A stretch of 64,000 nt of DNA from positions 5,001 through 69,000 of the forward strand of contig NZ_JATAAF010000004.1 of NCBI RefSeq assembly GCF_030341905.1. Direction: 5' to 3'. A program made the position numbers and the translations under genes. This DNA is from Porticoccus sp. W117. Its GTDB lineage: Bacteria; Pseudomonadota; Gammaproteobacteria; Pseudomonadales; Porticoccaceae. Positions 24,029 through 45,935 of the stretch are shown here, piece after piece. The notes under the pieces are model-generated. The model ran no database searches. It saw nothing but the letters and a program-made list of their open reading frames with translations, and was not told the origin of the DNA. The first letter of the stretch is position 1; each line of letters begins with the position of its first letter.

Positions 24029-24065
24029 TCGATAGCTTAGTTAACAGCTGAAGCATTGCTTCGAT

Positions 24066-24100
24066 AAAAAACCCCGCATTGAGAGATGCGGGGTTTTTTT
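24066..24100 (+). terminator. Terminator of the str operon
   Basis: CCCCGCAT (24072-24079) and ATGCGGGG (24086-24093) form a strong hairpin flanked by an A-run on the left and seven or more T on the right. It can work in both directions and marks the border between the core genes and the polysaccharide locus. Confidence 0.92.
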
Positions 24101-24194
24101 ATATCCGGATGGTTTGTATTTGCTTCTGTGTGTGAGCAAAACAGAAGAAGAGTTATGTTAATGTAGAAACATCATAGCAGTGGAAAATAACAAG

Positions 24195-25265: not shown

Positions 25266-25305
25266 TGTTTTTTTTACGTATTTGTGACGACTGGATGTTT
25301 TTGAA

Positions 25306-26190: not shown

Positions 26191-26191
26191 T

Positions 26192-26728
26192 GTGATTGTG
26201 ACGGCGACATCAGTCGACGGTGTACTGATTATCCAACCCAAAGTTTTTGGGGATGATCGTGGCTTCTTTTTAGAAACCTTTCAGGCGGAAAGGTATAAAA
26301 AAGCGTTGAATATTAATTTTGATTTTGTTCAGGATAACCACTCTCGTTCCGCGAAAGGAGTGTTGAGAGGGTTGCACTTTCAAAAAAAACGGCCACAAGG
26401 AAAACTGGTGCGTGTGGTTAAAGGTGAGGTGTTTGATGTGGCTGTGGATGTTCGGCCGGGCTCATCGACTTTTGGCCACTGGGCGGGTGTTACGTTAACT
26501 GAAGAAAATAAAAAGCAACTTTGGGTTCCACCAGGTATGGCTCATGGCTTTGTGGTGCTATCAGAAAGTGCTGATTTCGAATATAAGTGTACAGATTACT
26601 ATGACCCCAATGATGAATGCTGCCTGGCTTGGGATGATAAAAGCTTGGCAATTGATTGGCCTGTTGAACATCCGGTTCTTTCTGAAAAGGACAGTTTAGG
26701 GAAAACTCTTAAGGAGTTGTTTCCTTGA
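26192..26728 (+). CDS. rfbC: dTDP-4-dehydrorhamnose 3,5-epimerase
   Basis: A 178-residue cupin-fold epimerase acting on the rfbB product. The stretch DDRGFFLETFQAERY, the LRGLHFQ active-site segment with its histidine, and WVPPGMAHGFVVLSE are characteristic. Start is a GTG one base after the rfbA stop, and the stop overlaps the rfbD start. Confidence 0.95.
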   Translation: MIVTATSVDGVLIIQPKVFGDDRGFFLETFQAERYKKALNINFDFVQDNHSRSAKGVLRGLHFQKKRPQGKLVRVVKGEVFDVAVDVRPGSSTFGHWAGVTLTEENKKQLWVPPGMAHGFVVLSESADFEYKCTDYYDPNDECCLAWDDKSLAIDWPVEHPVLSEKDSLGKTLKELFP

Positions 26729-27594
26729 AAGTGTTAATAGTCGGTGCTGGCGGCCAACTTGGTCGCTGTTTGTGTGATGAGCTGACCAGACGACTCACGG
26801 TGTTCTCTTCCTATAGTTCCAAAGAACTGGACGTCACAGATTTAGAATCTGTGCAAAATGTTATTTCGCTAGAATGCCCTGCTGTTGTCATAAATGCGGC
26901 AGCTTACACTGCTGTTGATCAGGCGGAAGAACAAAAGGAGCAGGCCTTTTCGGTAAATGCAACTGGTGCTGAAAATCTTGCCCGTGCCTGCGAAGGTGTT
27001 GGGGCTGTTCTTGTGCATGTATCTACCGACTATGTTTTTCATGGTAAGTCGGAACGCCCTTACACAGAAGTGGATGCAGTCAATCCGATTAATGTGTACG
27101 GGAGCTCAAAATTATTGGGTGAGGAGCTGATCGCTCAGAGAATAGGGCGGTACATTATTGTTCGAACTTCATGGGTCTTTAGCGAATACGGAAGTAATTT
27201 TTTTAAGACTATGAGCCGACTGGCTCTAGAAAAAGAACAAGTCTCAGTGGTTGATGACCAATATGGTTGCCCTACTTATGCGGGTGACTTGGCTTCTGCA
27301 CTGTTAAAGTTTTCTGAACTTTCCGTAGATAAAAGTTTCGATGGCTGGGGTATATATCACTATTGTGGGAGTGAGCAAACCAGCTGGTATGAGTTTGCTA
27401 AATGTATATTTCAGTTGCATGCCACACAGTCTTCCAAAAGTGTTGCAAAGTTGTCGCCACTAGCTAGTAAAAATTACCCGACGCCTGCTAAGCGCCCGCA
27501 ATATTCTGTGATGAGTACTCAAAAAGCAACTGAGTTGGGTATAAAGGCGGCCGACTGGAAGACCGCCATCAAAAAACTGATAAGTGCTAGTTAA
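26725..27594 (+). CDS. rfbD: dTDP-4-dehydrorhamnose reductase
   Basis: The last step to dTDP-L-rhamnose. The 289-residue SDR enzyme has GAGGQLGRCLCDEL, VSTDYVFHG, YGSSKLLGEE with the Tyr-x-x-x-Lys pair, and VDDQYGCPTYAGDLA. The start is TTG at 26725, overlapping the rfbC stop as TTGA behind an AAGGAG ribosome-binding site. The 3' end overlaps the convergent outer-membrane protein gene by 8 bases, leaving no room for a terminator between them. Confidence 0.95.
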   Translation: MKVLIVGAGGQLGRCLCDELTRRLTVFSSYSSKELDVTDLESVQNVISLECPAVVINAAAYTAVDQAEEQKEQAFSVNATGAENLARACEGVGAVLVHVSTDYVFHGKSERPYTEVDAVNPINVYGSSKLLGEELIAQRIGRYIIVRTSWVFSEYGSNFFKTMSRLALEKEQVSVVDDQYGCPTYAGDLASALLKFSELSVDKSFDGWGIYHYCGSEQTSWYEFAKCIFQLHATQSSKSVAKLSPLASKNYPTPAKRPQYSVMSTQKATELGIKAADWKTAIKKLISAS

Positions 27595-29742: not shown

Positions 29743-31257
29743 TCAATCCATGATAAGAAGAAATGAACTATAACCGTAAGCTAGTATCGCAACGGCCGCA
29801 ATGATGATGACAGGTGTATTGGCCTGAAACCAGCTCGTTTCGGTTCCCTGTGCTTGATAAGCAGGGATACTGCCAAGCAGCTCAATACCTTCTGGCAGTT
29901 GAGTGCTAAGTGTCTCGCCATTTCTGATTCTTGGATCCAGGTAAACATAAACAAGCATTAGCCCTATTGGAGCGAATATTGCCAGTAGAGGGCCAATAAA
30001 AATAAAATGACGAGCTTGTAGCCCGGATGGTCGCAGAGGTAGTACAGGACTCTCGCGCAGCCGGTAAGTCATCCCTTTGCCTTCGCGACTTATTGAAGCA
30101 GATAAATCGGCGTTTTGCCGTCTTTCGAGCATTTCCTCATAAATTTGCTTGGTAGTGTCATAATCACGCGTCAGTTCAGCGAGTTCAGCTTGGTTGGAGG
30201 CGATTCTTTCTGCCCGCCGTTGCTCGTTAGTCAATAGGGTTTTCAGCGATCGCTGTCGCTGCTGCATGCCCTGGAGATTCACTTCGGCTTCGGCCTGTTG
30301 CCGTCTGAGAACTTCAAATAAGGCCACTTCTTCGCTGGCATTACCACTATTAAAGCTGCCTGGAACTGTTTTTTGCAGTTGAGTGATTTGTTCATCTAGT
30401 GTGGCCAGTTGGCTGCGGAGCAAGATGATGTCTGGATGTTTTTCGGTACCAATCAGCAAGAGCTCGTCCAGGTCTCGCTGCATTTCAGTTCGTTGCTCAG
30501 CCAGAGCAGCAAGCTTTACTTTTGCTTTTTGATATTCTCTTTCTTTGTTCAGCTTTCCCTTAATAGTGCGAACTTTAGTTTTGGTCTCATCAATATCAAT
30601 AACAAGTGTATCCAGGTCAGCACGCAATTCATTGATGCTGTCGCTGACGCCAGATTCTGTGCCATCCATGTTTTGTTTTTTAAAATTGGATAGCTTTTTT
30701 TCTGCCGCTTCTAGCTCTGCTTTATACTTTTGGGCTTCGCTATTAATGAAATTATAGGCATCAAGACTTTCGTTTTGCTTTTGTTGAGAAGCACTGTTAA
30801 TGAAGGAGTCAATCAATGTATTCAGTGAAGAATAAGACCGTTGGGGGTCTTGGCTCTTTAAGCTAATTCTTAAGAGGTTATTGTTAAGTGGCTCAGTTTC
30901 AAAGGAGGCAGACAGCCCATTGATAGCTTCGTCAATGTCGTACTGAGAACTTTTTTCATCGATAATGCCGAGCTCCTTGGCTGCTCCAGTCAATATAAGG
31001 CGAGAACGTATAATGTCTTCTGCAATATTTACAGGAGCGATTTCTTGTATTGCTGCCCGGCCGCGCAACAAGTCGGTTGTTACGCTTTTCCGGTCAGCTT
31101 GGATTAACGCAGTAGTTTTATAGGTATTGGGCCATTTAGCGGCTAGCAGTAGGCACACACTCATAACGACAACAGACAGTGCCAAGCACAGCTTAATGTT
31201 AGCTTTTAGCTCCTCCAAAGTAGAGAGTACGATTTGCCGAATAAAGTCTAAGTTCAT
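29743..31257 (-). CDS. Polysaccharide chain-length determinant (PCP, Wzz/GNVR type)
   Basis: A 504-residue inner-membrane protein controlling polymer length. An N-terminal transmembrane segment (residues 22-39) precedes the Wzz domain, a long coiled-coil periplasmic part follows (about 170-360, rich in Glu, Lys, Gln), then the GNVR-type region and a second membrane segment near 415-435. A further hydrophobic C-terminal segment (about 480-500) is present. Layout and neighbours resemble the exosortase-associated family TIGR03007. It has no fused kinase domain; the separate kinase-like gene follows directly. Confidence 0.85.
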   Translation of the reverse strand: MNLDFIRQIVLSTLEELKANIKLCLALSVVVMSVCLLLAAKWPNTYKTTALIQADRKSVTTDLLRGRAAIQEIAPVNIAEDIIRSRLILTGAAKELGIIDEKSSQYDIDEAINGLSASFETEPLNNNLLRISLKSQDPQRSYSSLNTLIDSFINSASQQKQNESLDAYNFINSEAQKYKAELEAAEKKLSNFKKQNMDGTESGVSDSINELRADLDTLVIDIDETKTKVRTIKGKLNKEREYQKAKVKLAALAEQRTEMQRDLDELLLIGTEKHPDIILLRSQLATLDEQITQLQKTVPGSFNSGNASEEVALFEVLRRQQAEAEVNLQGMQQRQRSLKTLLTNEQRRAERIASNQAELAELTRDYDTTKQIYEEMLERRQNADLSASISREGKGMTYRLRESPVLPLRPSGLQARHFIFIGPLLAIFAPIGLMLVYVYLDPRIRNGETLSTQLPEGIELLGSIPAYQAQGTETSWFQANTPVIIIAAVAILAYGYSSFLLIMD

Positions 31258-31272
31258 GGTGCTGTGCCTACT

Positions 31273-31917
31273 TTAAAAGCGTCGCTCTGGTACTGTTATT
31301 TGGTCTGAGGGTTGTAGAGGGTAGTTCGCTTCAAGCTTGCCTCTGTTTAGCAAGTCGTCAAGGTTTATGTCGTAAACCTCGACCCCGCTTCCAGTGCGGC
31401 GATAAAGTTTTGCTCTGCTGAGTGCCGCATAGTCGTTAGGGCCTTCGGCCAGTAATACCAGATCGAGTACAGTCATGCCGTCTCTAAAGGCGATAGATTG
31501 CGGTGAGTTGACTGCACCTGTAATACGAACACGCCGTTGAAAATCAGTGCTGCCAGGGTTACTGACAATAACCGTTACCTTGGGTGTTTTAAGGTATGTA
31601 GCCAATATTTCAGTGATGTTGCTGGCAAGTTGTTCGGCCGTTAAGCCGGCGGCAATAACATCTCCAGCCAATGGTGTAGATATCATGCCGTCGGGCCTAA
31701 CAGGTACCGTTCCAGACAGCTCTTCATTGCGCCACACATTAATCTCTAACTGATCCCCTACGCCAATCTTGTACACTTCTGTAATGGTAGGTGCTTTGCG
31801 AATTTGTTTTTGTACTGGAGTCGATGTTGAACAAGACGCCAGAATTAGACATAAAGGTACAAATGCTAGCCTGCTAATGAGGTGCAACAATGATGAATTA
31901 GGGAGTAGCTGCCGCAT
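31273..31917 (-). CDS. Polysaccharide export lipoprotein (OPX, Wza-like)
   Basis: A 214-residue periplasm-facing lipoprotein: signal sequence ending in the lipobox LASC with Cys29, then the Poly_export domain (YKIGVGDQLEINVWRNEELSGTVPVRPDGMISTPLAGDV) and a SLBB-type domain (RVRITGAVNSPQSI). It lacks the C-terminal amphipathic helix of full-length Wza, in line with the short OPX class that works with a separate outer-membrane barrel; such a barrel is encoded two genes downstream. First gene of the minus-strand operon. Confidence 0.88.
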   Translation of the reverse strand: MRQLLPNSSLLHLISRLAFVPLCLILASCSTSTPVQKQIRKAPTITEVYKIGVGDQLEINVWRNEELSGTVPVRPDGMISTPLAGDVIAAGLTAEQLASNITEILATYLKTPKVTVIVSNPGSTDFQRRVRITGAVNSPQSIAFRDGMTVLDLVLLAEGPNDYAALSRAKLYRRTGSGVEVYDINLDDLLNRGKLEANYPLQPSDQITVPERRF

Positions 31918-32297: not shown

Positions 32298-33500
32298 GTG
32301 GTGACATTGGACGGAATAGTATGGTGGTTTTTGTGTCTTGTAGGGGCATGCTTGGCGGTGCTCTTTTTGCACGTATTGCTGTTGGTGGCGGCGTCTTGGT
32401 GGCGCCGGTATAGGCCCATAATGCCAGTCATGGACGATGCTGCTGCCGCGATTGCCATTTTGATTCCTGCCCATAACGAAGAGGCTTCCATAGTTGCCAC
32501 TATCAACTCCATTCAGCAGGCTGATTACAGTGGGTGCTTTGAGGTTTTCGTTATTGCTGACAACTGTACAGATGCCACTGCCAGTCTGGCGTTGAGTCGA
32601 GGTGCGCATGTTTGGAAGCGGTTCGATACATTAAATCCTGGTAAGGGGCAGGCTATTCAGTGGGCGGTTTCAAATCATCAGGAGGTTTTGGACGGTTTTG
32701 ACTACGTGGCTTTTGTGGATGCGGATACGCAGGTGGATCAGCAATTTTTGTCCAAAGTGAATTCTGCACTCAGTATTCAGGGGGTTGATGTGATTCAGGG
32801 GTTTCACGGTGTGCTCAATGGTGAAGATAATTGGCGTGCCTCATTCACTTATCTGGGGTTTGCTGGGGTAAATCACGTGCGCCCCTGTGGCCAGTACGCT
32901 TTAGGGGGGAGTGCAGGCATTAAAGGTAATGGCATGGCTTTTCGACGAGAGTTGTTGCAGCAATTTGGGTGGCCAGCTCATTCGATAGTGGAAGATTTAG
33001 AGATGACTTTGAGATTATTGCTGTCAGGTCATCGAGTAGCTTATGTGGGCGATGCTGTTGTTCGTTCAGAAATGCCCTTGACAGCAGGTCAGGCATATTC
33101 CCAGCGGGAGCGTTGGGAAGGGGGGCGCCATCAAGTGGCTAAGCAGTACTTACCACAATTGCTGAAGCGCTTTTTTACAACCGGTCAATGGCGATATTTT
33201 GATGCGGTACTTGATCTCATGGTGCCCCCCTTTACCTTAATGCTGTTGTTGGCTTGTTGTGTACTATTGGTTGGTTTATGGGCTGCTCATGGGGTATTGG
33301 TGTACGTAGGTGTTGTAGGTATTTTGTGCGTAATGGCCTATTCCTGTAGCGCCCTCCTGCAGACGGGAGCTTCGCTGAAAGTGTGGCGAAATTTGTTGGC
33401 TGCACCCCTATTTTTGCTATGGAAGGTGCCGTTGTCCTTGCGGTTGTTGGGTAGTCGCCAGCGTGCCTGGAAGCGTACCTCTAGAAATTCTGAGCAATAA
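32298..33500 (+). CDS. Membrane glycosyltransferase, family 2
   Basis: A 400-residue inverting glycosyltransferase. An N-terminal membrane segment (residues 8-32) is followed by the GT-A domain: AILIPAHNEEASIVATI, the VIADNCTDAT segment, FVDADTQV as metal site, IVEDLEMTLRL as catalytic region and QRERW as the acceptor-side motif of processive-type GT2 enzymes. Two hydrophobic segments follow near 310-360. Sugar and acceptor are unknown. Start is GTG, either 32298 or one codon later. First gene of the long plus-strand array. Confidence 0.85.
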   Translation: MVTLDGIVWWFLCLVGACLAVLFLHVLLLVAASWWRRYRPIMPVMDDAAAAIAILIPAHNEEASIVATINSIQQADYSGCFEVFVIADNCTDATASLALSRGAHVWKRFDTLNPGKGQAIQWAVSNHQEVLDGFDYVAFVDADTQVDQQFLSKVNSALSIQGVDVIQGFHGVLNGEDNWRASFTYLGFAGVNHVRPCGQYALGGSAGIKGNGMAFRRELLQQFGWPAHSIVEDLEMTLRLLLSGHRVAYVGDAVVRSEMPLTAGQAYSQRERWEGGRHQVAKQYLPQLLKRFFTTGQWRYFDAVLDLMVPPFTLMLLLACCVLLVGLWAAHGVLVYVGVVGILCVMAYSCSALLQTGASLKVWRNLLAAPLFLLWKVPLSLRLLGSRQRAWKRTSRNSEQ

Positions 33501-33646: not shown

Positions 33647-36600
33647 ATGAATGCTGAAGGTACATTCAGTTGCTTCCTTATCGGGGGCGATACGCTGCTG
33701 CTGGAGTGCGGTGATCTACTCATTGAATCAGGTCACTCTGTTTTGGGTATTATCACAAGGGCTCCGCGCATTGCAGATTGGGCTAATGACCGATCTATCC
33801 CTGTTATCCCTCTGGACTCGGACTATGAAGTCGAGTTGTCGAAGCAGCCGTTCGATTACCTGTTTAGCATTACCCACCTAGAAATGATCTCTGAGAGTGT
33901 GCTTGCGTTGCCCAAGCAGCTGGCCATCAACTTCCACGATGGCCCATTGCCTCGATATGCGGGCCTGAATACCCCAGCTTGGGCGTTGATGAATGGTGAA
34001 TCTGAATACGGAATCAGTTGGCATGTAATGGCTCCTGGGGTGGATCAGGGGGATTTGCTCAAGCAACAAATGTTTGGCGTCTCTGCCAATGAGACATCGC
34101 TGTCTATCAATACCAAGTGCTTTGCGGCTGCCTTGGAGAGTTTCCCAAAATTGGTGAACGAACTGGTATCCGGCACGGTTCAGTGCACAGCGCAAGACCT
34201 TTCAAAAAGAAGCTATTTTGGAAAATACCAGCGCCCCGCTGGGGCCGGCGTATTGGATTGGCAGCGCTCGGCACAGGTGTTGGAGGCGCAAATTCGTGCC
34301 TTGGATTTTGGCAGTTATCTCAATTCGTTGAACTGTGCTAAAGCAGTCATTGGTAGTCAGATATTTGTGGTGGCTTCCGCCACGGCTGTAGACGTTGAAG
34401 CCACTTCGGCGGTTGGCACTGTATTGGCTATTAGTGATGAGTCTATCCAGGTTGCTTGTAGTCAGGGCGCGTTGAGCCTGACGGGCTTCAGTAGTGTGGG
34501 TGGAGAAGAGCTGTCTCCTGCGCAAGTGGCAGAACAGTGCCGGCTTGAGCCGGGCTGTGTTCTGGCTGTACCAAACATGGACGCCTTGGATAGTGTGAAT
34601 GCCAAGTGTAGTCGAGCAGAAGCCTTTTGGCTTAACCGTTTAGTATCCCTGGAGTCGACTCCAGCGCCTTATGCCTCTGAGGTTTCTAGCCATCAAGCAG
34701 CAAACAGTCAATCCCTGGCCATTGATGTGCCTGCTGGATTGGTGGCAGGTGATGCCCGTGATTACGCTATCGCCGCTTTTGTGTTGTTGCTGGGTCGTCT
34801 TGCTGGCCGAGAGCAGGTCGATATTGCCTTTTCCAATGAGCAACTGCGGGCTGATGCACTGATTGCCCCTGGTTTGATGAGTGCCAATTCAATACTTCGG
34901 GCTACTGCTGAAAGTAATGGCAGCTGCCATCAGCTGATTGAGCGCGTTGGGCGGGAAATGTCTGAAACTGCCTCTCAGGGAAGTTGGTTACATGAGGTGG
35001 CAGTACGTTATCCGGAATTGCGCACCGCTGCTGAATTGAAATTGCCAGGTTTGTTGCCAGTGGGTGTTTCAGTTGGTAATGACGGTGCCGATGTGGTGCT
35101 GGAGCAGGGCAGGGTGCTGACGTTGCTTTGCACGTCATCTGGGCGGGTGCATCTGGCTTATGACGAAAACCGACTTGCCAGTGATATGGCCAGCAAGCTG
35201 GCGGGGCAGTTGGCAGCATTGATTAACAGTATGGCTGCCAACCCTGAACAGCTTGTCGCCAGTTTGGAACTGCTGTCACAGGAAGAGAAAAATCGAGTAT
35301 TGGTGGAGTGGAATGATACCGAGGCGTCTTATGATAAGACCGCCTGTGTCCACCAATTGTTTGAACAGCAGGTGCAGCGCAAGCCAGAGGCCGCTGCGTT
35401 GGTGTTTGAAGATAAAGAGCTCAGCTACAGTGAACTCAACCAACGCGCCAATCAGCTTGCTCATCACTTGATGGCATTGGGTGTTGGGCCAGACACCATG
35501 GTGGGAGTGCATATAGAGCGCTCTTTGGATTTGATGGTAGCGACCCTGGGGGTGATGAAGGCCGGTGGTGCCTATGTGCCGCTGGACCCGGCGTTCCCGG
35601 CAGATCGTATTCGCTTTATGATCGAGGATTCCGCTATGCCGGTGATCCTCACCCAGTCGGCCATTGAGTCTCAGTTGCCCGCACATCAAGCGAAAACCAT
35701 ATCTATCGACTCCGACTGGCCGCAAATAGCGGGGTGTCCCGCTACTGCGCCGGCTGTTGATATCACGTCATCAAATCTGGCGTATGTGATTTATACCTCC
35801 GGATCCACCGGCAAGCCCAAAGGCGTCATGGTGGAACACCGCAATGCGGTGAATTTCTTTGTTGGGATGGATCGAGTCATCCCTCACGATGACAACAGTA
35901 CCTGGTTGGCTGTCACCAGCCTCTCTTTCGATATATCCGTGTTGGAGCTGTTTTGGACGCTCACCCGTGGCCTGAAAGTAGTCATCTACCTGGATCGTGA
36001 TAAGAAGCTATCGATGCCAGATGCGTCTTCAGTACCTATATCGGTGAGTGGGCGCCCAATGTCCTTTGGCCTATTTATGTGGGGCAATGATGATGGCCCC
36101 GGTGAAGCCAAATACCGCCTGATGATGGAGGGCTCCAAGTACTTTGACGAGAACGGCTTTAATGCGGTTTGGACGCCAGAGCGCCACTTTGGCGCCTTTG
36201 GTGGGCCTTACCCCAACCCGGCGGTAACCAGTGCGGCCATTGCCGCTGTCACCAAGAATATCTCTATTCGCTCTGGCAGTTGTGTCTCTCCGTTGCACCA
36301 CCCTATTCGTATTGCTGAAGACTGGGCGGTTGTCGATAACCTCTCCAACGGGCGAGTGGCGCTGTCTTTTGCTGCTGGCTGGCAGCCGAACGATTTTGTG
36401 ATCAAACCTGAAAACCACAAAAACAATAAACAGGTGATGATGGAGCAGATCGAAACCGTGAAGAAGCTCTGGCGCGGTGAAAAGGTGGCTTTCGAGAACC
36501 CCATGGGACAAATGGTAGATATCGAGACTCTGCCACGCCCGGTGCAAAAAGAGTTGCCGGTTTGGTTTACCACAGCGGGTAATCCGGAGTCCTACCGCCA

Positions 36601-38320
36601 GGCTGGCGAGCTGGGCGTTAATGTGCTCACCCACCTGCTGGGGCAGTCAGTAGAAGAGTTGGCAGAAAAGGTCAAAATTTATCGCGAGGCCAGAGCCAAA
36701 GCAGGCCACGATCCGGCTGCGGGCAAGGTCTCCCTGATGCTGCATACGCTGGTGGGTGATAACACCGATGAGGTTCGCGAGTTAGTCCGTCAACCCATGA
36801 AGGACTACCTGAGCTCGGCCATGAAACTGGTGCTGGATTTTGCCTGGGCGTTTCCGGCCTTCAAGCGCCCTGGCGGTGCAGACAGCAACCCGGAAGATAT
36901 CGACATCAAGAACCTCAGTGCTGAGGATACCGACGCTATTTTGGAATTCGCCTTTGAACGCTATTTTGAAACCAGCGGACTGTTTGGCGACGTGGCCACT
37001 TGTGAAGCGATGATTAATCGTTGTAAGGCAGCGGATATCGACGAAATTGCCTGCTTGATGGACTTTGGTGTGGATACCAATGTGGTGATGGACAGCCTGC
37101 CATTATTGAAGCAGGTCAGGGACTTAACCAACCCATCTGTCGATACGAAAAACGCCACTGCCGATCAGTCTCTGGCAGCACAGATTCGCAGGCACGGAGT
37201 GACGCACTTCCAGTGCACGCCCTCAATGGCACGTATGCTGACCTTCGATGACGATGCCAAACAGGCGTTGGGAGAGATCGATTACATGATGGTGGGTGGC
37301 GAAGCACTACCTACCAGCCTTGCCCAAGAGTTGAACGGCATTGTTAAACGCCGCGTGACCAATATGTATGGCCCGACGGAAACCACGATTTGGTCGACCA
37401 CTCAGGTTATTGGTGACACAGAGTCTGTCGCTATTGGGCGGCCTATTGCCAATACCCAGATCTATATTCTGGATGAACATCGCCGCCCGGTGCCTCCAGG
37501 GGTGCCAGGGGATCTGTTTATTGGTGGCGATGGTGTGGTGCGCGGCTACTTGAATCGGCCGGATTTGACCTCGGAACGTTTTATCACCAACCCCTTTATG
37601 GAACAGGGCACTATTTACTGGACGGGCGATATGGCTCGCTACCAGGAAGATGGTGTTATCGATTTCCTTGGCCGTGTTGACCACCAGGTGAAAATTCGTG
37701 GCTATCGCATTGAGTTGGGCGAAATCGAGACGCGCATAGGCCAGTACGCTGGCGTTCGCGAAAATGTAATGCTACTGCGGGAAGATAGTCCCGGAGACCA
37801 ACGCTTGGTGGCCTACTTGATGGTGGGGGATCCTGCTTTTGACATAGCAGCGCTGAAATCCCATTTGCGGGAAAAACTGCCGGAATATATGGTGCCCAAT
37901 GATGTGGTGATTCTGGACGCCTTTCCGCAAACCCCCAATGGCAAGATCGACCGCAAGGCACTGCCATCACCGCAATCTTTGCAGAAGGCTCAGGTTGCAG
38001 AGTATGTGGCACCGGAAGATGGCATTGAAAAAACCATCGCCAAAGTCTGGCAGGAGACGCTACAGCTGGACAAGGTGGGTATTAACGACAACTTCTTTGA
38101 CCTCGGTGGCCATTCGCTGTTGATTGTGAAAGTGCACTCGCAGCTGAAAGCAGAGCTGGATCAGCCTGTATCGCTGACGGATCTGTACCGTTGCCCGACC
38201 ATCAAGTCGTTGACCGCCTTCCTCAATACAGATGGGGCAGGGGAGTCGATGAAGAAAAGCTCCGATCGTGCCCAGCGTCGACGTGCCATGATGGGTGGTA
38301 GGCGGCGTCGTGCCAGGTAG
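33647..38320 (+). CDS. NRPS: formyltransferase - half C domain - A domain split by luciferase-like monooxygenase - PCP
   Basis: A 1557-residue nonribosomal peptide synthetase module. Residues 1-195 are a methionyl-tRNA-formyltransferase-like domain with the catalytic Asn95, His97 and Asp132, followed by the matching C-terminal subdomain (to about 315). Residues 330-560 resemble only the second half of a condensation domain; no HHxxxDG is present. The adenylation domain has A1-A4, then a TIGR04020-type luciferase-like monooxygenase (about 800-1160), then A5-A10. The ten code residues read DILQMGMIWK by hand alignment, close to the known glycine code DILQLGLIWK. The carrier domain has Ser1490, and the protein ends in an Arg-rich tail. 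The ATG at 33647 is chosen; in-frame starts at 33605 and 33632 exist. The PKS gene follows after 91 bases. Confidence 0.92.
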   Translation: MNAEGTFSCFLIGGDTLLLECGDLLIESGHSVLGIITRAPRIADWANDRSIPVIPLDSDYEVELSKQPFDYLFSITHLEMISESVLALPKQLAINFHDGPLPRYAGLNTPAWALMNGESEYGISWHVMAPGVDQGDLLKQQMFGVSANETSLSINTKCFAAALESFPKLVNELVSGTVQCTAQDLSKRSYFGKYQRPAGAGVLDWQRSAQVLEAQIRALDFGSYLNSLNCAKAVIGSQIFVVASATAVDVEATSAVGTVLAISDESIQVACSQGALSLTGFSSVGGEELSPAQVAEQCRLEPGCVLAVPNMDALDSVNAKCSRAEAFWLNRLVSLESTPAPYASEVSSHQAANSQSLAIDVPAGLVAGDARDYAIAAFVLLLGRLAGREQVDIAFSNEQLRADALIAPGLMSANSILRATAESNGSCHQLIERVGREMSETASQGSWLHEVAVRYPELRTAAELKLPGLLPVGVSVGNDGADVVLEQGRVLTLLCTSSGRVHLAYDENRLASDMASKLAGQLAALINSMAANPEQLVASLELLSQEEKNRVLVEWNDTEASYDKTACVHQLFEQQVQRKPEAAALVFEDKELSYSELNQRANQLAHHLMALGVGPDTMVGVHIERSLDLMVATLGVMKAGGAYVPLDPAFPADRIRFMIEDSAMPVILTQSAIESQLPAHQAKTISIDSDWPQIAGCPATAPAVDITSSNLAYVIYTSGSTGKPKGVMVEHRNAVNFFVGMDRVIPHDDNSTWLAVTSLSFDISVLELFWTLTRGLKVVIYLDRDKKLSMPDASSVPISVSGRPMSFGLFMWGNDDGPGEAKYRLMMEGSKYFDENGFNAVWTPERHFGAFGGPYPNPAVTSAAIAAVTKNISIRSGSCVSPLHHPIRIAEDWAVVDNLSNGRVALSFAAGWQPNDFVIKPENHKNNKQVMMEQIETVKKLWRGEKVAFENPMGQMVDIETLPRPVQKELPVWFTTAGNPESYRQAGELGVNVLTHLLGQSVEELAEKVKIYREARAKAGHDPAAGKVSLMLHTLVGDNTDEVRELVRQPMKDYLSSAMKLVLDFAWAFPAFKRPGGADSNPEDIDIKNLSAEDTDAILEFAFERYFETSGLFGDVATCEAMINRCKAADIDEIACLMDFGVDTNVVMDSLPLLKQVRDLTNPSVDTKNATADQSLAAQIRRHGVTHFQCTPSMARMLTFDDDAKQALGEIDYMMVGGEALPTSLAQELNGIVKRRVTNMYGPTETTIWSTTQVIGDTESVAIGRPIANTQIYILDEHRRPVPPGVPGDLFIGGDGVVRGYLNRPDLTSERFITNPFMEQGTIYWTGDMARYQEDGVIDFLGRVDHQVKIRGYRIELGEIETRIGQYAGVRENVMLLREDSPGDQRLVAYLMVGDPAFDIAALKSHLREKLPEYMVPNDVVILDAFPQTPNGKIDRKALPSPQSLQKAQVAEYVAPEDGIEKTIAKVWQETLQLDKVGINDNFFDLGGHSLLIVKVHSQLKAELDQPVSLTDLYRCPTIKSLTAFLNTDGAGESMKKSSDRAQRRRAMMGGRRRRAR

Positions 38321-38411
38321 TCCTAAAAGGTAACGTAACAGGACAATAATAATAAAATAGGGATTCAACAGCGGCTTGCTTCCGCGGTAACTCAGTAAGT
38401 GATTGATACAA

Positions 38412-41400
38412 ATGGCTAATACAGAAGAAACAACGGGCTACGATATCGCCATCGTGGGGATGGCATTGCGTGTACCTGGAGCAAACACCCCGGAAGCGTT
38501 TTGGAACAACCTACGCAATGGCGTGGAGTCAGTGGAGTTTTATGACGAAGCTGAGTTGGCGGAGCGCGGCGTTAATCCGGCGCAGCTGAAAAACCCCCAT
38601 TACATTCGTGCCGGGGCGCCGTTAGACAACATGAAAGGATTTGATCCGGAATTCTTTGGTTTTAGCCCCAAAGAAGCCGGTATTTTGGACCCTCAGCATC
38701 GTCAGTTTTACGAGTGCGCCTGGGAAGCATTGGAGCGCTCTGGGCATATGCCAGGCAGTGATCAAAACGCTTTCGATGGCGCCATAGGGGTTTTTGCGGG
38801 TTGTGGCATGGGGGCCTATTTTGCCCAGAATATTCTGACCAATCAGGACTTGTTGGATTCTGTGGGCCTATTCTTGTTGCGCCATACAGGCAATGACAAA
38901 GACTTTCTTTCTACCCGAGTCTCCTACAGTTTTGACCTGAAAGGCCCCAGCGTCAACGTACAAACCGCTTGTTCCACGTCATCAGTAGCCACTCATATGG
39001 CCTGCCAGAGCTTGATTAGTGGCGAGTGCGATATGGCATTGGCTGGTGGCGTGACCATTGAGCTGCCTCATAGAGTGGGCTACCTCTACAAAGAAGGGGA
39101 AATCCTCTCTCCAGACGGGCACTGCCGTGCTTTTGATCACCGCTCCAAAGGTACGATATTTGGTAGTGGCACAGGCGTCATTGTGTTGCGCCGCTTGGAA
39201 GATGCCCTTGATGACGGCGATCACATCCACGCAGTCATTTCTGCTTCTGCGGTGAACAACGATGGCTCTGGCAAGGTGGGCTATTTGGCTCCCAGCGTCG
39301 AAGGCCAGGCCGAAGCGATTAACGAAGCACTGGCGATGGCGGATCTGTCGGCGGACGATATCGACTACGTGGAGTGTCACGGCACGGGCACGCCAGTAGG
39401 TGACCCCATTGAAGTATCTGCCTTGACGCAAGCATTTCGTGAATCATCTGAGCGCAATGGCTATTGTGGTATTGGCTCGGTAAAAACCAATATCGGCCAC
39501 TTGGATACCGCTGCCGGTGTTGCCGGTATTATTAAAGCGGCGTTGGCCATTGAACACGGCGAAATACCGCCCAGCCTGAACTACGAGGCGCCGAACCCCA
39601 CCATCGACTTCGACAGCAGCCCATTTTATGTCAACGACAAGCTGCGCCCCTGGCCAAAGAAAGACGGTTTGCGTCGGGCGGCAGTCAATTCGTTGGGGGT
39701 GGGAGGTACGAACGCTTTTGTGTTGCTGGAGCAAGCCCCGGAGCCCGACCCCGCCAGCGAGCCGGCCCGTGATTGCCAACTGCTGGTTATGTCTGCTCGC
39801 AACCGTAAGGCCCTGGATGGGGCCAGCGAAAAACTGGCTAACTGTTTTCAAACTGGCGCTAACGACTCTTTGGCAGATATAGCCCATACGTTGTTCGTTG
39901 GCAGAAAGCCTTTTGAACATCGCCGAGTGCTTGCGAGTGGTAGTTTGGCTGAAGCATCCCGTTTGTTGCAGGATAATGACCCCCGCCGCGTATTTACCCA
40001 TATCGCCGATGAAGACGATAAATCGGTTGTCTTTATGTTCCCAGGTGGCGGTGCTCAGTACCTCAATATGGGGCGAGACCTGTATGACACCGAAGCCGTA
40101 TTCCGAGAGCATTTGGATAAAGGCTTTGAGTTGCTGAAACAACGCAATGGTATCGATTTAAAACCATTGTTATTTGTTGATGAGGCAGACCAGCAGCAAG
40201 CGGCGATAGAGTTGCAAAAACCGTCCATTCAGCTGCCGGCCATCTTTATGGTGGAATATGCACTGGCCCAGTTGTGGATAAGCTTGGGGATCGAGCCCAA
40301 AGCGTTAATTGGTCACAGCATGGGCGAAAATACTGCCGCTTGTGTGGCAGGTGTGCTTTCTTTTGAAGATGCGCTGGGCTTGGTGGCACTTCGTGGCAAA
40401 CTGATGGATGGCGTGCCAGAAGGGGGGATGCTGAGTGTACCTCTGTCTGCGGATGAGCTGCGACCTTACCTGTCTGATGAGCGGTTGGAGAATAAACTAG
40501 AGCTGGCTTGTATCAACAGCCCTATGCTGTCCATTGTATCTGGCCCGGTTCATTGGTTGGAGCAGCTATCACAAATTTTGGCGGCTGATGATGTAGAAGC
40601 CAAGCGTGTGCCCATCAATATTGCCGCTCATTCATCGATGCTGGATGGGATTCTTGATGTGTTTGGCGATTACCTGAAGGGTATTGGCCTGAGCAAGCCA
40701 CAACTGCCTTTTGTGTCCAATAGAACGGGCACCTGGATTACGGATGAGCAGGCCACAAGCCCACAATACTGGGTAGAACACCTGCGTAATACCGTGTTGT
40801 TTGCTGCGGGCATCGATACTTTACTGGAACAGCCCGGCCGAGTATTTTTGGAAGTAGGGCCGGGTAATATCCTTGGCTCCCTGACTCGGCAAAACAGCAA
40901 CGCCCCGGCACAGCGAGTGTTTTCATCGCTCAGGCACCCAGACGAAGAAGTGAGTGACGATGCCTACTTCTTAACCGTGCTTGGCCGCCTGTGGGCGGTT
41001 GGTGTTGATGTGGATAAAAGTAGTCTGTGGCCTGATGAGCATCGCCACAGGGTGCCTTTACCGACTTACGCTTTCCAGCATAAAGATTACTGGATTGAGC
41101 CAGGCAAGCTGGCTGATACCTCCCAGCGCGCGTTTGCTCAGCTGGAAAAAATCGATAATTTTGAGCAGTGGTTCAGCCAACCGGTTTGGGTTCAGCAGGG
41201 GTTGATGCCTTCCTCTCAAATTGAGCCCAGCACCTATTTAGTATTTGCTGATGACGGGCCAGTGTGCCAGCCATTGATTGCTCGGCTGCAAAACGCTGGC
41301 CACGAAGTCGTGACTGTACGCGAAGGTGATGCTTACTACCAAATAAGCCCTACGGAGTATCGCCTTTCACCAGAAGCGGGTGGTGAAGGTTATAAAGCGC

Positions 41401-44400
41401 TGGTCAATGATTTGGTGGCCAGTGGGAAGGTGCCTAACCGCATTGTTCACCTGTGGCTGGTAACTCAGGACGAAGTATTTCGGCCCGGCTCCAGCTTCTT
41501 CCACCGCAACCAGGAATATGGTTTTTATAGCCTGTTTTTCCTAGCCAGGGCGCTGAGCGAGCAGGGCGTGGCTGATCGTGAGATACATATGATTGTTGCG
41601 TCTAGTGGGATGCAGCAAGTACAGGGCGAGGAGCTGCCTTACCCTGAAAAATCCACAGTGCTTGGCCCCTGTAAAGTAATCCCTCGTGAGTTTCCCGGCG
41701 TCACTTGCAGTAGTGTCGATGTTTTGCTGCCCCAAGCTAAGTCGCAGCGTTTTACTTTGCTGGGCAATGGTGAGCAGGGCCGCGATGGAGAAATCGAAAA
41801 TCTGGCAGAGCGGCTATTTGCCGAGGCGCAGGCTCCGGCCACTAATGGAGTGTTTGCCTATCGGAATGATAGCCGTTGGCAACAACACTACGATCACTTG
41901 CCAGCGAAGGGGGCAGAAGCTCCGGCATCCCGGGTTAAACAGGAAGGTGTCTACCTGATTACCGGTGGTTTGGGTGGTATTGGCTTTGAAATGGCCAAGT
42001 ACCTGGCGGTAAATGCCAATGCACGCTTGGTTTTGGTTAACCGCAAGCCCCTGCCTGCGCAGGAAGAGTGGGCGCAATGGCTGACAACACACCCACATGA
42101 CGATGCAATCAGTGTCGGTATTCGCCGAGTAAAAGAGTTGCAAGGCAGTGGTGCAGAAGTACTTGCGTTGAGTGCGGATGTAACTGATGTAGACGGCATG
42201 AGGCGAGTGTTAACAGAAGCCAAAGAGCATTTTGGTTCTATTAATGGCGTGATTCACGCTGCCGGTGTGGTGAAAGACAACCTGATTCCTGTTAAGACTC
42301 AAACTGAAATTGAAGACGTCTTTGCGCCCAAGGTTTATGGCACCTTGATATTGGATGAATTATTCCGTGATGAACCATTGGAATTTATGGTGCTGTTTTC
42401 TTCCACAAGTACCGCCATTGCGCCAGTTGGACAAACAGATTATGTGGCTGCAAATGCTTTCCTCAATGCCTACGCACAAAGCCGCAATAGTGGTAGCCAA
42501 TATACGGTTGCCATTAATTGGGGAATCTGGAATGAAGTTGGCATGGCGGCAGCAACCGCTCGGGATATGGGCTTTGCCCCACAAAAGGCGGAGTCGCACA
42601 GTGAGTCGGCGAGCCACCCATTATTTGAACAGCGTGTTGCTGTTATTGATGGTGGTCAAGAAACGCAAATTCTTCTCGGCCACTTTTCACCCAAAACAGA
42701 CTGGTTTCTGGATGAACATCGAACGGCTGATGGGCAGGCTATTCTTCCCGGTACGGCCTATATCGAGCTGGCAAGGGCGGCGTTGGCAGAGTGTGGCGAG
42801 CAAGCGCCTTTTGAAATTCGTGAGCTAATGTTCTTTCGGGCTCTTTACATTGCCGATGAAGAGTCTCGTCAAGTGCGTGTGAAGTTGCAAAAAACTGAGC
42901 GCGGTTACCAGTTTGAAGTACAGAGTGAGCAGACTCAAAACGATGGGGCCAAAGGTTGGCAACGCCATGCCCAGGGCGCAATTGTTTTTAAATCTGTCAT
43001 GCAGCCACAATCAGTTGTGCTTGAAGATATTCTGGCACGCTGTAATTTACAGCCTGGTAACAACAATGCTCCTGCGATACGCAGCCGACAGCAAGATCAT
43101 TTGGATTTTGGCCCTCGTTGGCATGTGATACGCCAACAGGCTTATGGTGATAACGAAGCTGTAGCACAGTTGAGTCTGGACTCTGAATACAGCAGTGACT
43201 TAGAGCATTTTAAATTGCATCCAGCCTTGCTGGATCTGGCTACTGGCCATGCCATGGAATTGATTTCCGGCTACGCCAGCGGTGACAAAGCAGAGAATTT
43301 GTGGGTGCCAGTTTCCTATGGCAGCTTCCGGTATTTCCGCCCTCTCGGTGACAGTTTATTTAGCTGGGTGCGTACCCCGCGCCCAGTTAGTGTGGATGAC
43401 GATTTTGCCAGTTTTGACGTCACCTTGCTGGACGCAGCGGGTCAGGTACTGGCGGAAGTATCACAGTTGACCATTAAAAGGCTGGAAGGGAAGGTGGATT
43501 TTTCTGCCACAGAGTCGCTGTCTTCTGAAGAATTAGAGCTGGAGCCTGATGCAAGTGCTGCCAGTGAAGTGCGCCAGTTGTCTCCCGCAGAGATGGCTTT
43601 TCAACACAACCTTTCCCAGGGGATTTTGCCGGCGGAAGGCACTCGGGCACTGTCGAACATATTGCAGTCGCACAGTGCTCCGCAGGTTATTGTCAGTTCT
43701 TTGGATATCGAGGGTTTGGTGGAAGAAGCTGGAGCCGCTGCTGCGTCTTTGCAGGCTGATGGTGATGCGACCAAATTCGCTCGTCCGGACCTCGACAACG
43801 ACTACGTGGAGGCGAGAGACGAAATTGAGCGCACCCTGGTTGGCTTCTGGGAAGAGCTCCTGGGTGTTGATCAGGTTGGCGTAGAGGACAATTTCTTTGA
43901 CCTTGGCGGCCACTCGTTGGTAGCCGTGCGACTGTTTTCAAAAATTCAGCAAACCTTCGATTTGGATTATCCGATTTCGGTGCTGTTTGAAGCGCCAACG
44001 ATTGCCGGTTGTGCAGAGATGATACGACAGGTAATTGGGGATGTGCCTGGCAGTGATTCCACCGAGGCAAAAGAGCCCAAACACCAGACCCGTTATACCC
44101 ATTTGGTGCCTATGCATTCTGGTAAAGCCGGAGAAAAAACGCCGTTCTTCCTGGTTGCAGGCATGTTCGGCAACGTTCTTAACCTTCGTCACCTAGCACA
44201 TCTAGTTGGTCAAGATCGAGCCTTTTACGGTTTGCAGGCGCGTGGCCTCTATGGAGACCACGAGCCACATGAAACCTTTGAGGAAATGGCGAGAGATTAC
44301 ATTGCCGAAATGAAAGCGGTGCAACCTCGCGGCCCCTATATGCTGGGTGGATTCTCTGGTGGTGGCATAACAGCATTCGAAATGGCCAGGCAATTGATGG

Positions 44401-44912
44401 ATCAAGGGGAGGAGGTGGAAAAGCTTATCCTCCTTGATACTCCTCTGCCTTGGATGCCAGCATTGAGCTCCGTGGATCGCGTGGCTATTCATTGGCAGAA
44501 GCTTAAATCCAAAGGACCTGCTTATTTTGCTGAGTGGGCTGTAAGCCGCTACAAATGGGAATTGGATAAGTTCCGGAAGCGTTACGACTCTCCGCAAGAA
44601 ACGCAAACCCCTACAGGCGATTTCCAGTCGGAAAGAATCGCTGTCGCATTTTATGAAGCGCTGGATCGCTACGATTTGAAACCCTTGGACCTTGACATCG
44701 TATTGTTCAGGCCCAAACCAGAAAAAGCTTTTGATCTGCCTGGTGGCCGTGTATTGAAATCTGACATGAGATTGGCAATTCATGATAACGGTTGGAATGA
44801 CTACGTAAAAAGCGTAGAAGTGCACGAAGTGCCTGGAGATCACGACGGTATGGTTTTGGAACCAAGTGTTAGAGTTCTTGCAGCGAAATTTCAACAGTGT
44901 CTAGGCGCTTAA
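38412..44912 (+). CDS. Type I PKS module: KS-AT-KR-DH-ACP-TE
   Basis: A 2166-residue polyketide synthase. The ketosynthase has the triad Cys187 (TACSTSS), His323 (CHGTGTP) and His363 (NIGHLD). The acyltransferase has Ser636 in GHSMGE and IAAHS at 737-741, which is not the HAFH of typical malonyl-specific domains, so the extender is uncertain. A ketoreductase follows with GGLGGIG near 1183 and DYVAAN. After it comes a dehydratase hot-dog domain (His1436 in the HxxxGxxxxP pattern). The carrier has Ser1835, and a type I thioesterase has Ser1982 (GFSGG) and His2144. KR before DH is the reverse of the usual order. The in-frame TTG upstream (38403) is a weaker start. As a terminal module it would extend the NRPS product by one unit and release it as an acid, ester or amide. 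Confidence 0.93.
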   Translation: MANTEETTGYDIAIVGMALRVPGANTPEAFWNNLRNGVESVEFYDEAELAERGVNPAQLKNPHYIRAGAPLDNMKGFDPEFFGFSPKEAGILDPQHRQFYECAWEALERSGHMPGSDQNAFDGAIGVFAGCGMGAYFAQNILTNQDLLDSVGLFLLRHTGNDKDFLSTRVSYSFDLKGPSVNVQTACSTSSVATHMACQSLISGECDMALAGGVTIELPHRVGYLYKEGEILSPDGHCRAFDHRSKGTIFGSGTGVIVLRRLEDALDDGDHIHAVISASAVNNDGSGKVGYLAPSVEGQAEAINEALAMADLSADDIDYVECHGTGTPVGDPIEVSALTQAFRESSERNGYCGIGSVKTNIGHLDTAAGVAGIIKAALAIEHGEIPPSLNYEAPNPTIDFDSSPFYVNDKLRPWPKKDGLRRAAVNSLGVGGTNAFVLLEQAPEPDPASEPARDCQLLVMSARNRKALDGASEKLANCFQTGANDSLADIAHTLFVGRKPFEHRRVLASGSLAEASRLLQDNDPRRVFTHIADEDDKSVVFMFPGGGAQYLNMGRDLYDTEAVFREHLDKGFELLKQRNGIDLKPLLFVDEADQQQAAIELQKPSIQLPAIFMVEYALAQLWISLGIEPKALIGHSMGENTAACVAGVLSFEDALGLVALRGKLMDGVPEGGMLSVPLSADELRPYLSDERLENKLELACINSPMLSIVSGPVHWLEQLSQILAADDVEAKRVPINIAAHSSMLDGILDVFGDYLKGIGLSKPQLPFVSNRTGTWITDEQATSPQYWVEHLRNTVLFAAGIDTLLEQPGRVFLEVGPGNILGSLTRQNSNAPAQRVFSSLRHPDEEVSDDAYFLTVLGRLWAVGVDVDKSSLWPDEHRHRVPLPTYAFQHKDYWIEPGKLADTSQRAFAQLEKIDNFEQWFSQPVWVQQGLMPSSQIEPSTYLVFADDGPVCQPLIARLQNAGHEVVTVREGDAYYQISPTEYRLSPEAGGEGYKALVNDLVASGKVPNRIVHLWLVTQDEVFRPGSSFFHRNQEYGFYSLFFLARALSEQGVADREIHMIVASSGMQQVQGEELPYPEKSTVLGPCKVIPREFPGVTCSSVDVLLPQAKSQRFTLLGNGEQGRDGEIENLAERLFAEAQAPATNGVFAYRNDSRWQQHYDHLPAKGAEAPASRVKQEGVYLITGGLGGIGFEMAKYLAVNANARLVLVNRKPLPAQEEWAQWLTTHPHDDAISVGIRRVKELQGSGAEVLALSADVTDVDGMRRVLTEAKEHFGSINGVIHAAGVVKDNLIPVKTQTEIEDVFAPKVYGTLILDELFRDEPLEFMVLFSSTSTAIAPVGQTDYVAANAFLNAYAQSRNSGSQYTVAINWGIWNEVGMAAATARDMGFAPQKAESHSESASHPLFEQRVAVIDGGQETQILLGHFSPKTDWFLDEHRTADGQAILPGTAYIELARAALAECGEQAPFEIRELMFFRALYIADEESRQVRVKLQKTERGYQFEVQSEQTQNDGAKGWQRHAQGAIVFKSVMQPQSVVLEDILARCNLQPGNNNAPAIRSRQQDHLDFGPRWHVIRQQAYGDNEAVAQLSLDSEYSSDLEHFKLHPALLDLATGHAMELISGYASGDKAENLWVPVSYGSFRYFRPLGDSLFSWVRTPRPVSVDDDFASFDVTLLDAAGQVLAEVSQLTIKRLEGKVDFSATESLSSEELELEPDASAASEVRQLSPAEMAFQHNLSQGILPAEGTRALSNILQSHSAPQVIVSSLDIEGLVEEAGAAAASLQADGDATKFARPDLDNDYVEARDEIERTLVGFWEELLGVDQVGVEDNFFDLGGHSLVAVRLFSKIQQTFDLDYPISVLFEAPTIAGCAEMIRQVIGDVPGSDSTEAKEPKHQTRYTHLVPMHSGKAGEKTPFFLVAGMFGNVLNLRHLAHLVGQDRAFYGLQARGLYGDHEPHETFEEMARDYIAEMKAVQPRGPYMLGGFSGGGITAFEMARQLMDQGEEVEKLILLDTPLPWMPALSSVDRVAIHWQKLKSKGPAYFAEWAVSRYKWELDKFRKRYDSPQETQTPTGDFQSERIAVAFYEALDRYDLKPLDLDIVLFRPKPEKAFDLPGGRVLKSDMRLAIHDNGWNDYVKSVEVHEVPGDHDGMVLEPSVRVLAAKFQQCLGA

Positions 44913-44951: not shown

Positions 44952-45935
44952 ATGAAAGTTGCGGTTGTCACTGTAAACTACAAGACCGCCGATATGACGC
45001 TTGAGGCCGTAAGTGCAGCAATTGGGGCGCTAGGTCATATTGATGATGAGTGGTCGATAACCATTGTCGATAATGACTCAGGCGACGGCAGCTACGAGAA
45101 AATGAAAAATGCTGTCGATCAAAGACGCTCTGATGGATTGGCTGGCTGGGAATCGGTTTTTGTTCTGCAATCCGGCAATAACGGGGGTTTTGGTGCGGGA
45201 AATAATTTTGCGATAAAAAAATACCTCGACTCAAAAAATCCACCTGAGTACTTTTATCTGCTGAACTCTGATGCTTTCCCAGATTCCGACGCTATCCAGA
45301 GATTGCTGGACTATATGGATGAAAACCATAAGCTTGGAATGGCAGGTAGCTATATTTACGGTGTTGATGGAAAACCACATATTACCGCATTCCGGTTTCC
45401 ATCTATTTGGGGAGAGCTCGAAGGCGGAGCCTGTCTTGGCATAATTACCAAGCTGCTAAAAAACTATACAGTGCCTATTGGAATTCCAGATCAACCAGCC
45501 CAGGTTGATTGGGTTGCGGGGGCCAGCTTGATGATGCGCAGAGAAATGCTGGAAAAGGTGGGTTTGTTTGATGAAACTTTTTTCTTGTATTTTGAAGAAA
45601 CCGATCTGTGCCGGCAGGCGGCGTTAAAAGGCTGGAAGACTCACTACGTGCCTGCGAGTAAGGTGGCACATATAGGATCTGCATCCACCAAAATTAAAGA
45701 GTCATCAGATGATGCCCAGGAAGGGCGCGCCAATACTGTTCGGCTACCTTCATATTGGTTTGAATCAAGAACACACTACTTCAAAAAAAATCATGGCAAG
45801 CTATATACAATCGTAGCGACTGTATTCCGTGTTTTGGGATGTGGTATTTGGTTTTGTAAACGCTTGATTTCCAAAGATCGAAATCACGTGCCGCCGCACT
45901 TTGTTCGCGATCTCATTGCTCACACTAAGGTTTAG
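44952..45935 (+). CDS. Glycosyltransferase family 2, rhamnosyltransferase-like
   Basis: A 327-residue GT-A enzyme without an N-terminal membrane anchor. It has VAVVTVNYKTADMTLEAV at the start, the IVDNDSGDGS nucleotide-sugar segment, the SGNNGGFGAGNNFAI block typical of WbbL/rhamnosyltransferase-type GT2 proteins, YLLNSDAFP in place of DxD, and a FYFEETDLCRQAALKGW catalytic region. Given rfbBACD in the same locus, dTDP-rhamnose is a plausible donor, but this is inference. It starts 39 bases after the PKS gene. Confidence 0.85.
   Translation: MKVAVVTVNYKTADMTLEAVSAAIGALGHIDDEWSITIVDNDSGDGSYEKMKNAVDQRRSDGLAGWESVFVLQSGNNGGFGAGNNFAIKKYLDSKNPPEYFYLLNSDAFPDSDAIQRLLDYMDENHKLGMAGSYIYGVDGKPHITAFRFPSIWGELEGGACLGIITKLLKNYTVPIGIPDQPAQVDWVAGASLMMRREMLEKVGLFDETFFLYFEETDLCRQAALKGWKTHYVPASKVAHIGSASTKIKESSDDAQEGRANTVRLPSYWFESRTHYFKKNHGKLYTIVATVFRVLGCGIWFCKRLISKDRNHVPPHFVRDLIAHTKV

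Follow-up and report, generated by a model that had tools for sequence, protein, structure and literature searches.

What is an enzyme system of the kind that usually makes antibiotics doing inside a locus for a cell-surface sugar polymer? The question is raised by two adjacent genes, encoding the proteins P0001 (gene 1) and P0002 (gene 2), in Porticoccus sp. W117 (assembly GCF_030341905.1, contig NZ_JATAAF010000004.1, positions 5,001 to 69,000; this whole stretch of 64,000 nucleotides is the window, and coordinates refer to it unless the contig is named). An earlier note, made from the sequence alone, had described a two-gene nonribosomal peptide synthetase-polyketide synthase (NRPS-PKS) line between glycosyltransferase genes, on the same strand and with short gaps. 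This description was borne out: both genes are intact single open reading frames (ORFs), the flanking polysaccharide genes are real, and the spacing is tight, with one glycosyltransferase gene (GT2) ending at 33500, gene 1 running from 33647 to 38320, gene 2 from 38412 to 44912 and the next GT2 gene starting at 44952. On balance, the pair appears to be a dedicated two-protein line of a surface-polysaccharide pathway, making one small C4-type acyl group.

Gene 1 is composed as follows.

33647..38320, plus strand: loading protein P0001 (longest ORF from 33605), formyltransferase (FT), C-lobe remnant, adenylation (A) domain with embedded monooxygenase (MOx), peptidyl carrier protein (PCP) and basic C-terminal tail
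33662..34579, plus strand: formyltransferase domain (PF00551/PF02911), catalytic Asn109/His111/Asp147
34610..35320, plus strand: remnant of a condensation domain, reduced to the C-terminal lobe and lacking HHxxxDG (residues ~336-572 of gene 1)
35360..37945, plus strand: adenylation domain, specificity code DILQMGMIW(K), glycine/MOx type
36065..37120, plus strand: luciferase-like (flavin mononucleotide, FMN) monooxygenase insert, between motifs A4 and A5 of the adenylation domain
38033..38224, plus strand: peptidyl carrier protein (PF00550), Ser in 79/79 complete homologs

The ATG at 33647, residue 15 of the longest ORF and in frame with it, is the likely start. Pfam and NCBIfam profiles identified both formyltransferase domains (N- and C-terminal), an AMP-binding domain split by TIGR04020, its C-terminal AMP-binding partner and a PP-binding domain; the earlier reading of the protein had overlooked the formyltransferase and the embedded monooxygenase. 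With a Formyl_trans fold, the catalytic Asn/His/Asp and a fused A domain, the protein has the make-up of an NRPS formyltransferase loading module. The catalytic Asn and His are kept in 82 of 83 loading-protein homologs (invariant where present) and the Asp in 80, and the AlphaFold model of the domain (pLDDT 91.5) matched the ArnA/Fmt fold. The profile of the condensation-domain remnant aligned to residues ~200-467 of condensation-domain structures such as 8hlk, that is, to the C-terminal half alone. The HHxxxDG motif was absent from all 83 homologs, and a profile search of the whole genome detected no condensation domain (PF00668). Because the genome is without a true condensation domain, gene 1 is, as read from its sequence, a non-condensing loading module, and "NRPS" in the name NRPS-PKS stands for such a module. 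A peptide-bond-forming NRPS, and with it canonical peptide synthesis, was rejected on the same two grounds.

The adenylation code, read by motif alignment, takes the form D-I-L-Q-[M/L/F]-G-M-[I/V]-W across the 83 homologs, with rare exceptions; in a published survey DILQLGMIWK was found in all four MOx-bearing Gly domains examined there (PMC12283262). The code and the MOx insert group the domain with Gly-activating MOx-type adenylation domains, and glycine is its predicted substrate. The monooxygenase scored 496.7 bits against TIGR04020 over the full model (1-341; curated cut-off 244.45), which places it in the MupA/Atu3671 family, and it has a solved structural relative in PuwE (6ket, E 1.7e-142).

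Gene 2, whose likely start is the ATG at 38412, has the following parts.

38412..44912, plus strand: polyketide synthase P0002 (longest ORF from 38403), ketosynthase (KS), acyltransferase (AT), ketoreductase (KR), dehydratase (DH), acyl carrier protein (ACP) and thioesterase (TE), in the order KS-AT-KR-DH-ACP-TE
38442..39728, plus strand: ketosynthase, C190, H326, H366
40029..40889, plus strand: acyltransferase, S639, H743
41946..42536, plus strand: ketoreductase, K1310, S1334, Y1347, N1351
42615..43493, plus strand: dehydratase, H1439, D1611
43833..44024, plus strand: acyl carrier protein, S1838
44142..44909, plus strand: thioesterase, S1985, D2012, H2147, similar to the Pks13 TE

All active sites from KS to ACP are intact, as in a cis-AT type I PKS module, and P0002 is the only large type I KS protein of the genome. 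The KS Cys/His/His, AT Ser/His, KR Lys/Ser/Tyr/Asn, DH His/Asp and ACP Ser were invariant in 66 PKS homologs. The TE was found in 62 of these, with the triad intact in 61-62; its nearest full-length relative with a structure is the Pks13 TE, at weak similarity (E about 1e-11). The AT probably takes malonyl.

The occurrence of the pair in other genomes was assessed by a scan of the monooxygenase region over 84,980 species genomes, which gave more than 589 candidate loci; the nearest 80 were analysed, with domains mapped by tblastn, neighbours clustered into families and the window itself included in the count of each family to which it belongs. The two genes were no more than 3 kb apart in 69 of the 84 loci examined, and on the same strand in 56. 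The earlier note had proposed a search for the same pair beside OPX/Wzy genes, and such loci were found: 66 of the 80 nearest loci, in Pseudomonadota, Myxococcota and Planctomycetota, carry polysaccharide families within about 10 kb, and of 40 genomes 14 had an OPX gene within 60 kb of the pair, where 2.4 would be expected (Poisson tail about 3e-7, with no correction for relatedness). Gene order was variable, being NRPS-PKS in the window, Myxococcota and Planctomycetota, PKS-GT2-NRPS-phosphopantetheinyl transferase in most Rhodobacterales, and divergent PKS/NRPS in Rhizobiales. Conserved partners were the GT2 of 44952, a phosphopantetheinyl transferase (PPTase) and a putative SGNH-like protein. 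Of the loci, 43 had a homolog of this GT2 nearby, 41 of them with both genes of the pair; in most loci from Rhodobacterales it stood between the PKS and NRPS genes. A PPTase (PF17837/PF01648) was nearby in 51. Other neighbours across the 80 loci included the GT1 of 50216 (35), Wzc (33), Wzx flippase (24), the glycoside hydrolase (GH) of 55357 (18), the GT2 of 45939 (18) and sugar-phosphate transferase (11). The wider flanks of the Myxococcota loci L067 and L069 and the Planctomycetota locus L074 carry Wzx, sugar-phosphate transferase, WecG/TagA-type glycosyltransferase and Wzc/CpsD-type genes.

Fourteen of the 80 loci had no polysaccharide families within 10 kb, five of them on contigs shorter than 10 kb. 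In L074, another of the 14, OPX adjoins the pair, and Wzx, GT2, sugar-phosphate transferase and WecG/TagA-type genes follow at a greater distance; L121 carries a GT1 gene and a gene that on inspection resembles UDP-GlcNAc-2-epimerase genes. The recurrent exporters near the pair are the glycan flippase and Wzc/OPX, and among the recurrent neighbour families of the 80 loci there were no siderophore uptake or modification genes, as a fabrubactin-like pathway would have, and no transporter, receptor or resistance genes typical of siderophore or antibiotic clusters. A TIGR04020 scan of the class placed 4 of 369 genomes above the cut-off, including that of W117; of the other three only G102 has the formyltransferase-loading type, near saccharide genes. 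The nearest monooxygenase by identity (67%) is that of L062, which like L063 belongs to Gemmatimonadota. It forms part of a formyltransferase-A(MOx)-carrier protein, and there is no PKS gene closer than 10 kb; the PKS match of L062 sits on another contig. In many Rhodobacterales (L084:13972-16533 and homologs) the GH-like homolog of 55357 has an extra N-terminal domain of ~320 aa, SGNH-like by motif and without a Pfam match, and a second SGNH-like protein after the PPTase adjoins the GH-like gene; these SGNH-like proteins are possible esterases or acyltransferases for the polymer.

From the domain set, a route to the product can be proposed. A phosphopantetheinyl transferase would activate the carriers and the A domain, by its conserved code, would load glycine onto the PCP. 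The formyltransferase would formylate the glycine nitrogen and the embedded monooxygenase hydroxylate the alpha carbon, as known domains of these types do. In myxothiazol and melithiazol synthesis, hydroxylation of the glycine alpha carbon by the MOx is followed by cleavage of the N-C bond, and the carrier keeps glyoxylate (PMC11342130). By this precedent the N-C bond may break here too, perhaps with loss of formamide, leaving a glyoxylyl group on the carrier. The KS would then condense the unit with malonate in one malonyl extension, and KR and DH would give an alpha,beta-unsaturated acyl-ACP, for example 4-oxo- or 4-formamido-but-2-enoyl. The TE might release the acyl group; the likeliest way would be its transfer to a hydroxyl or amine on a sugar of the repeat unit or a precursor, the alternative being release as the free acid. 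The near-complete invariance of the KS, AT, KR, DH, ACP and formyltransferase residues makes a single conserved product likely, a C4 unit from glycine and malonate. A 5-substituted oxazole starter, known from oxazolomycin-type lines, was considered and disfavoured, since it requires a beta-keto group, which would not survive the conserved KR and DH.

The earlier note had proposed an unusual acyl group for the polymer. The recurrent polysaccharide linkage and the prediction of one small acyl product sustain that proposal, but the partners it had named do not: two membrane acyltransferases (AT3, 57033 and 60843) and a DegT aminotransferase (58411) are without counterparts close to the pair across the 80 loci and are, for that reason, weak evidence for the acceptor.

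In W117 the pair is surrounded by the following genes.

44952..45935, plus strand: GT2 glycosyltransferase (PF00535), the commonest polysaccharide-type neighbour of the pair
32298..33500, plus strand: GT2 glycosyltransferase, EpsU/PgaC-like, homologs in 9/80 loci
31273..31917, minus strand: OPX/Wza-type export protein (PF02563)
29743..31257, minus strand: Wzc-type chain-length protein (by sequence inspection, no Pfam match; weak homologs in other loci)
53855..55360, plus strand: Wzy-type polymerase (PF04932, Wzy_C)
55357..56994, plus strand: clan GH-A-like glycoside hydrolase, homologs in 17 other loci
24180..27594, plus strand: rmlBACD, dTDP-rhamnose synthesis (by sequence inspection), left island end

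Pfam supported the OPX (PF02563), Wzy_C, DegT, GT2 and both Acyl_transf_3 genes, and the genome (3.28 Mb, 99.85% complete) encodes a single OPX, at a distance of about 2 kb from gene 1. By gene setting alone, with OPX, Wzy and glycosyltransferase genes around it, P0002 resembles RkpA/WcbR in being a PKS encoded inside a capsule synthesis/export locus. For phosphopantetheinyl transfer the genome has one protein with a PF01648-type domain, encoded on a different contig. The model of the GH-like protein matched GH5/GH26/GH51-type barrels (E about 1e-4) at a mean pLDDT of only 70, and a PHROGs search with this protein gave no match. Two further neighbours recur: a gene joining a GFO/IDH-type sugar dehydrogenase to an NAD-dependent epimerase (46970-49168), conserved close to the pair in 11 other loci, and a GMC-type oxidoreductase gene at the right window edge (62906-64000; contig C34 67906-69477), whose homologs accompany the pair in six others (e.g. 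L070, L072, L087).

These genes form an island of ~60 kb. It opens with rmlBACD at 24180, close behind tuf, and continues beyond the window on the right as far as contig position ~89,000, at which point the S10-operon ribosomal genes resume. One sister species, G001, for which the genome is complete, lacks the island, rmlBACD included, and has the S10-operon genes directly after tuf; a second (G002) has the island, with a pair 96%/99% identical to that of W117. The tuf/S10-operon junction (window 24028-24180 onward), otherwise conserved, is split in two of three Porticoccus species, a ribosomal operon being an unusual insertion site. The GC content is 0.546 in the backbone, mostly 0.43-0.44 in the island and 0.52-0.53 in the pair, and PKS homologs at E<=1e-300 were confined to 10 of the 392 genomes from the order. 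The island GC and the patchy occurrence point to lateral spread; elevated GC is also usual in megasynthases of this kind, a caveat on the contrast within the island.

The relationships of the loci were assessed from a FastTree phylogeny of 84 loading proteins, rooted by midpoint only. The window grouped with the gammaproteobacterial polysaccharide locus L066 (support 98). Outside a 75-member set holding the polysaccharide loci fell G054, G057, G102, L088, L093, L098 and L121/L125, the last two with incomplete surroundings; G102 is without the exact pair but adjoins saccharide-type genes. To judge from this tree, the polysaccharide-linked form, which bears a TE, seems to be a derived branch within a wider FT-A(MOx) loader family. 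An alpha/beta hydrolase pair lies next to the line in L093 (18153-19873), G057 (joined locus 15443-17164) and G102 (joined locus 23388-25062), L093 having in addition an asparagine synthase-like gene. These hydrolases, which we take to resemble exosortase-A-associated hydrolases, may replace the TE in those relatives.

Several observations weigh against a role in polysaccharide synthesis. The basal relatives G054, G057, L088, L093 and L098 lie in other settings, and in G054, G057 and L093 the TE is missing too. The main counter-example is Acanthopleuribacter L068, which falls inside the 75-member set with unsettled placement; its pair is complete and has the TE, and about 60 kb of sequence around it showed no polysaccharide genes. 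The line can therefore exist outside a polysaccharide locus. Relatives of this sort were what the earlier note had named as grounds for abandoning its proposal, and they do occur (TE-bearing L068; G054, G057 and L093, mostly TE-less), though most loci are linked. The nearest 80 loci are mostly from Alphaproteobacteria and their counts are not independent. Acyl supply to the glycan is the best explanation, with product, acceptor and transfer all hypothetical, and a diffusible product that has no more than the locus in common with the glycan genes is a less likely alternative. Such a free, secreted small molecule (a signal, metallophore or antibiotic), with linkage arising from surface-colonisation genes that travel together in islands, would agree with the pair lying outside polysaccharide loci in L068, G054, G057, L093 and L098, with the mobility of the island between G001 and G002 and with its GC contrast. 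The flavin monooxygenase FbnE has been proposed to make alpha-hydroxycarboxylates in fabrubactin siderophores (PMC12971057), and we infer that FbnE belongs to the TIGR04020 family. We nevertheless regard a free product as unlikely, as the linkage crosses phyla in differing gene orders, a GT2 gene lies between or next to the pair in many loci, and the recurrent neighbours include glycan exporters and no transporter, receptor or resistance gene of the siderophore or antibiotic kind.

Alternatively, the line could make a starter, primer or lipid-like anchor for the glycan rather than a repeat-unit substituent, a role that has been considered for the RkpA/WcbR capsule-locus synthases. The TE may transfer to an alcohol, and the available text on RkpA/WcbR places these type I PKS genes within capsule loci (PMC3908369). 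The domain set here predicts a single short, polar, glycine-started unit and no lipid, and ordinary sugar-phosphate transferase (PST) initiators are present in several loci, so that such a role seems improbable. Chance, by which an acquired secondary-metabolite pair happens to sit in the island, would fit the sporadic occurrence in the order and the GC contrast; set against the 66 of 80 linked loci, the conserved GT2 partner and the OPX excess, it is very improbable. A dedicated acyl-supplying line of the polysaccharide pathway is the reading that we favour.

Parts of this line have known counterparts. Formyltransferase loading modules are also present in oxazolomycin-type lines, and LgrA of linear gramicidin, which was among the FT profile matches, has an N-terminal FT with Asn/His/Asp next to an A domain; here, in contrast, a C-lobe remnant lies between FT and A, a MOx is embedded, the setting is polysaccharide and the FT sequence is closer to ArnA/Fmt than to that of LgrA. 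Pks13, the mycolic acid condensing PKS whose TE transfers the mycolic precursor to trehalose, is likewise a type I PKS ending in a TE but differs in starter, length and chemistry. The MOx-bearing Gly A domains of myxothiazol, melithiazol and some corallorazine-like clusters share the embedded monooxygenase (DILQLGMIWK there, DILQ[M/L/F]GM[I/V]W here); those modules end a line and trim the chain to an amide, whereas here the module loads, with a formyltransferase before it and a PKS module after it. PKS genes in capsule loci are already known from rkpA/wcbR, where the available text of PMC3908369 places a type I PKS among capsule synthesis and export genes and describes a single PKS gene and mentions no NRPS-type partner; compared by description, P0002 has KR and DH, no enoylreductase, a TE and a glycine-type loading protein. 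In Phaeobacter inhibens, Inhi_1972 and Inhi_1974 are recorded, in the part of PMC4062626 available, as orphan PKS/NRPS genes of secondary metabolism without a polysaccharide link. Two locus-tag numbers apart, they fit the PKS-GT2-NRPS order of many Roseobacteraceae here and, by gene order alone, are probably an already recorded pair of this type. The open-licence PMC literature, which leaves most subscription journals uncovered, yielded no paper that connects such a pair with a polysaccharide.

More tentatively, the pair could represent a widespread and previously unrecognised class of surface-polysaccharide pathway, in which a glycine-started NRPS-PKS line (formyltransferase, Gly-MOx loading, one reducing PKS module and TE transfer to sugar) supplies one conserved substituent, possibly a reactive 4-oxo- or 4-formamido-butenoyl group able to cross-link or cap the polymer. 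NRPS and PKS genes are routinely classed as secondary metabolism. If the pair does decorate a glycan, many orphan NRPS-PKS clusters would belong to pathways for biofilm or capsule formation, both in Alphaproteobacteria from marine and plant-associated settings (roseobacters, rhizobia, Devosia, Aureimonas and Hyphomicrobium) and in Myxococcota and Planctomycetota, and bacterial polysaccharides would bear a class of substituent derived from assembly-line chemistry.

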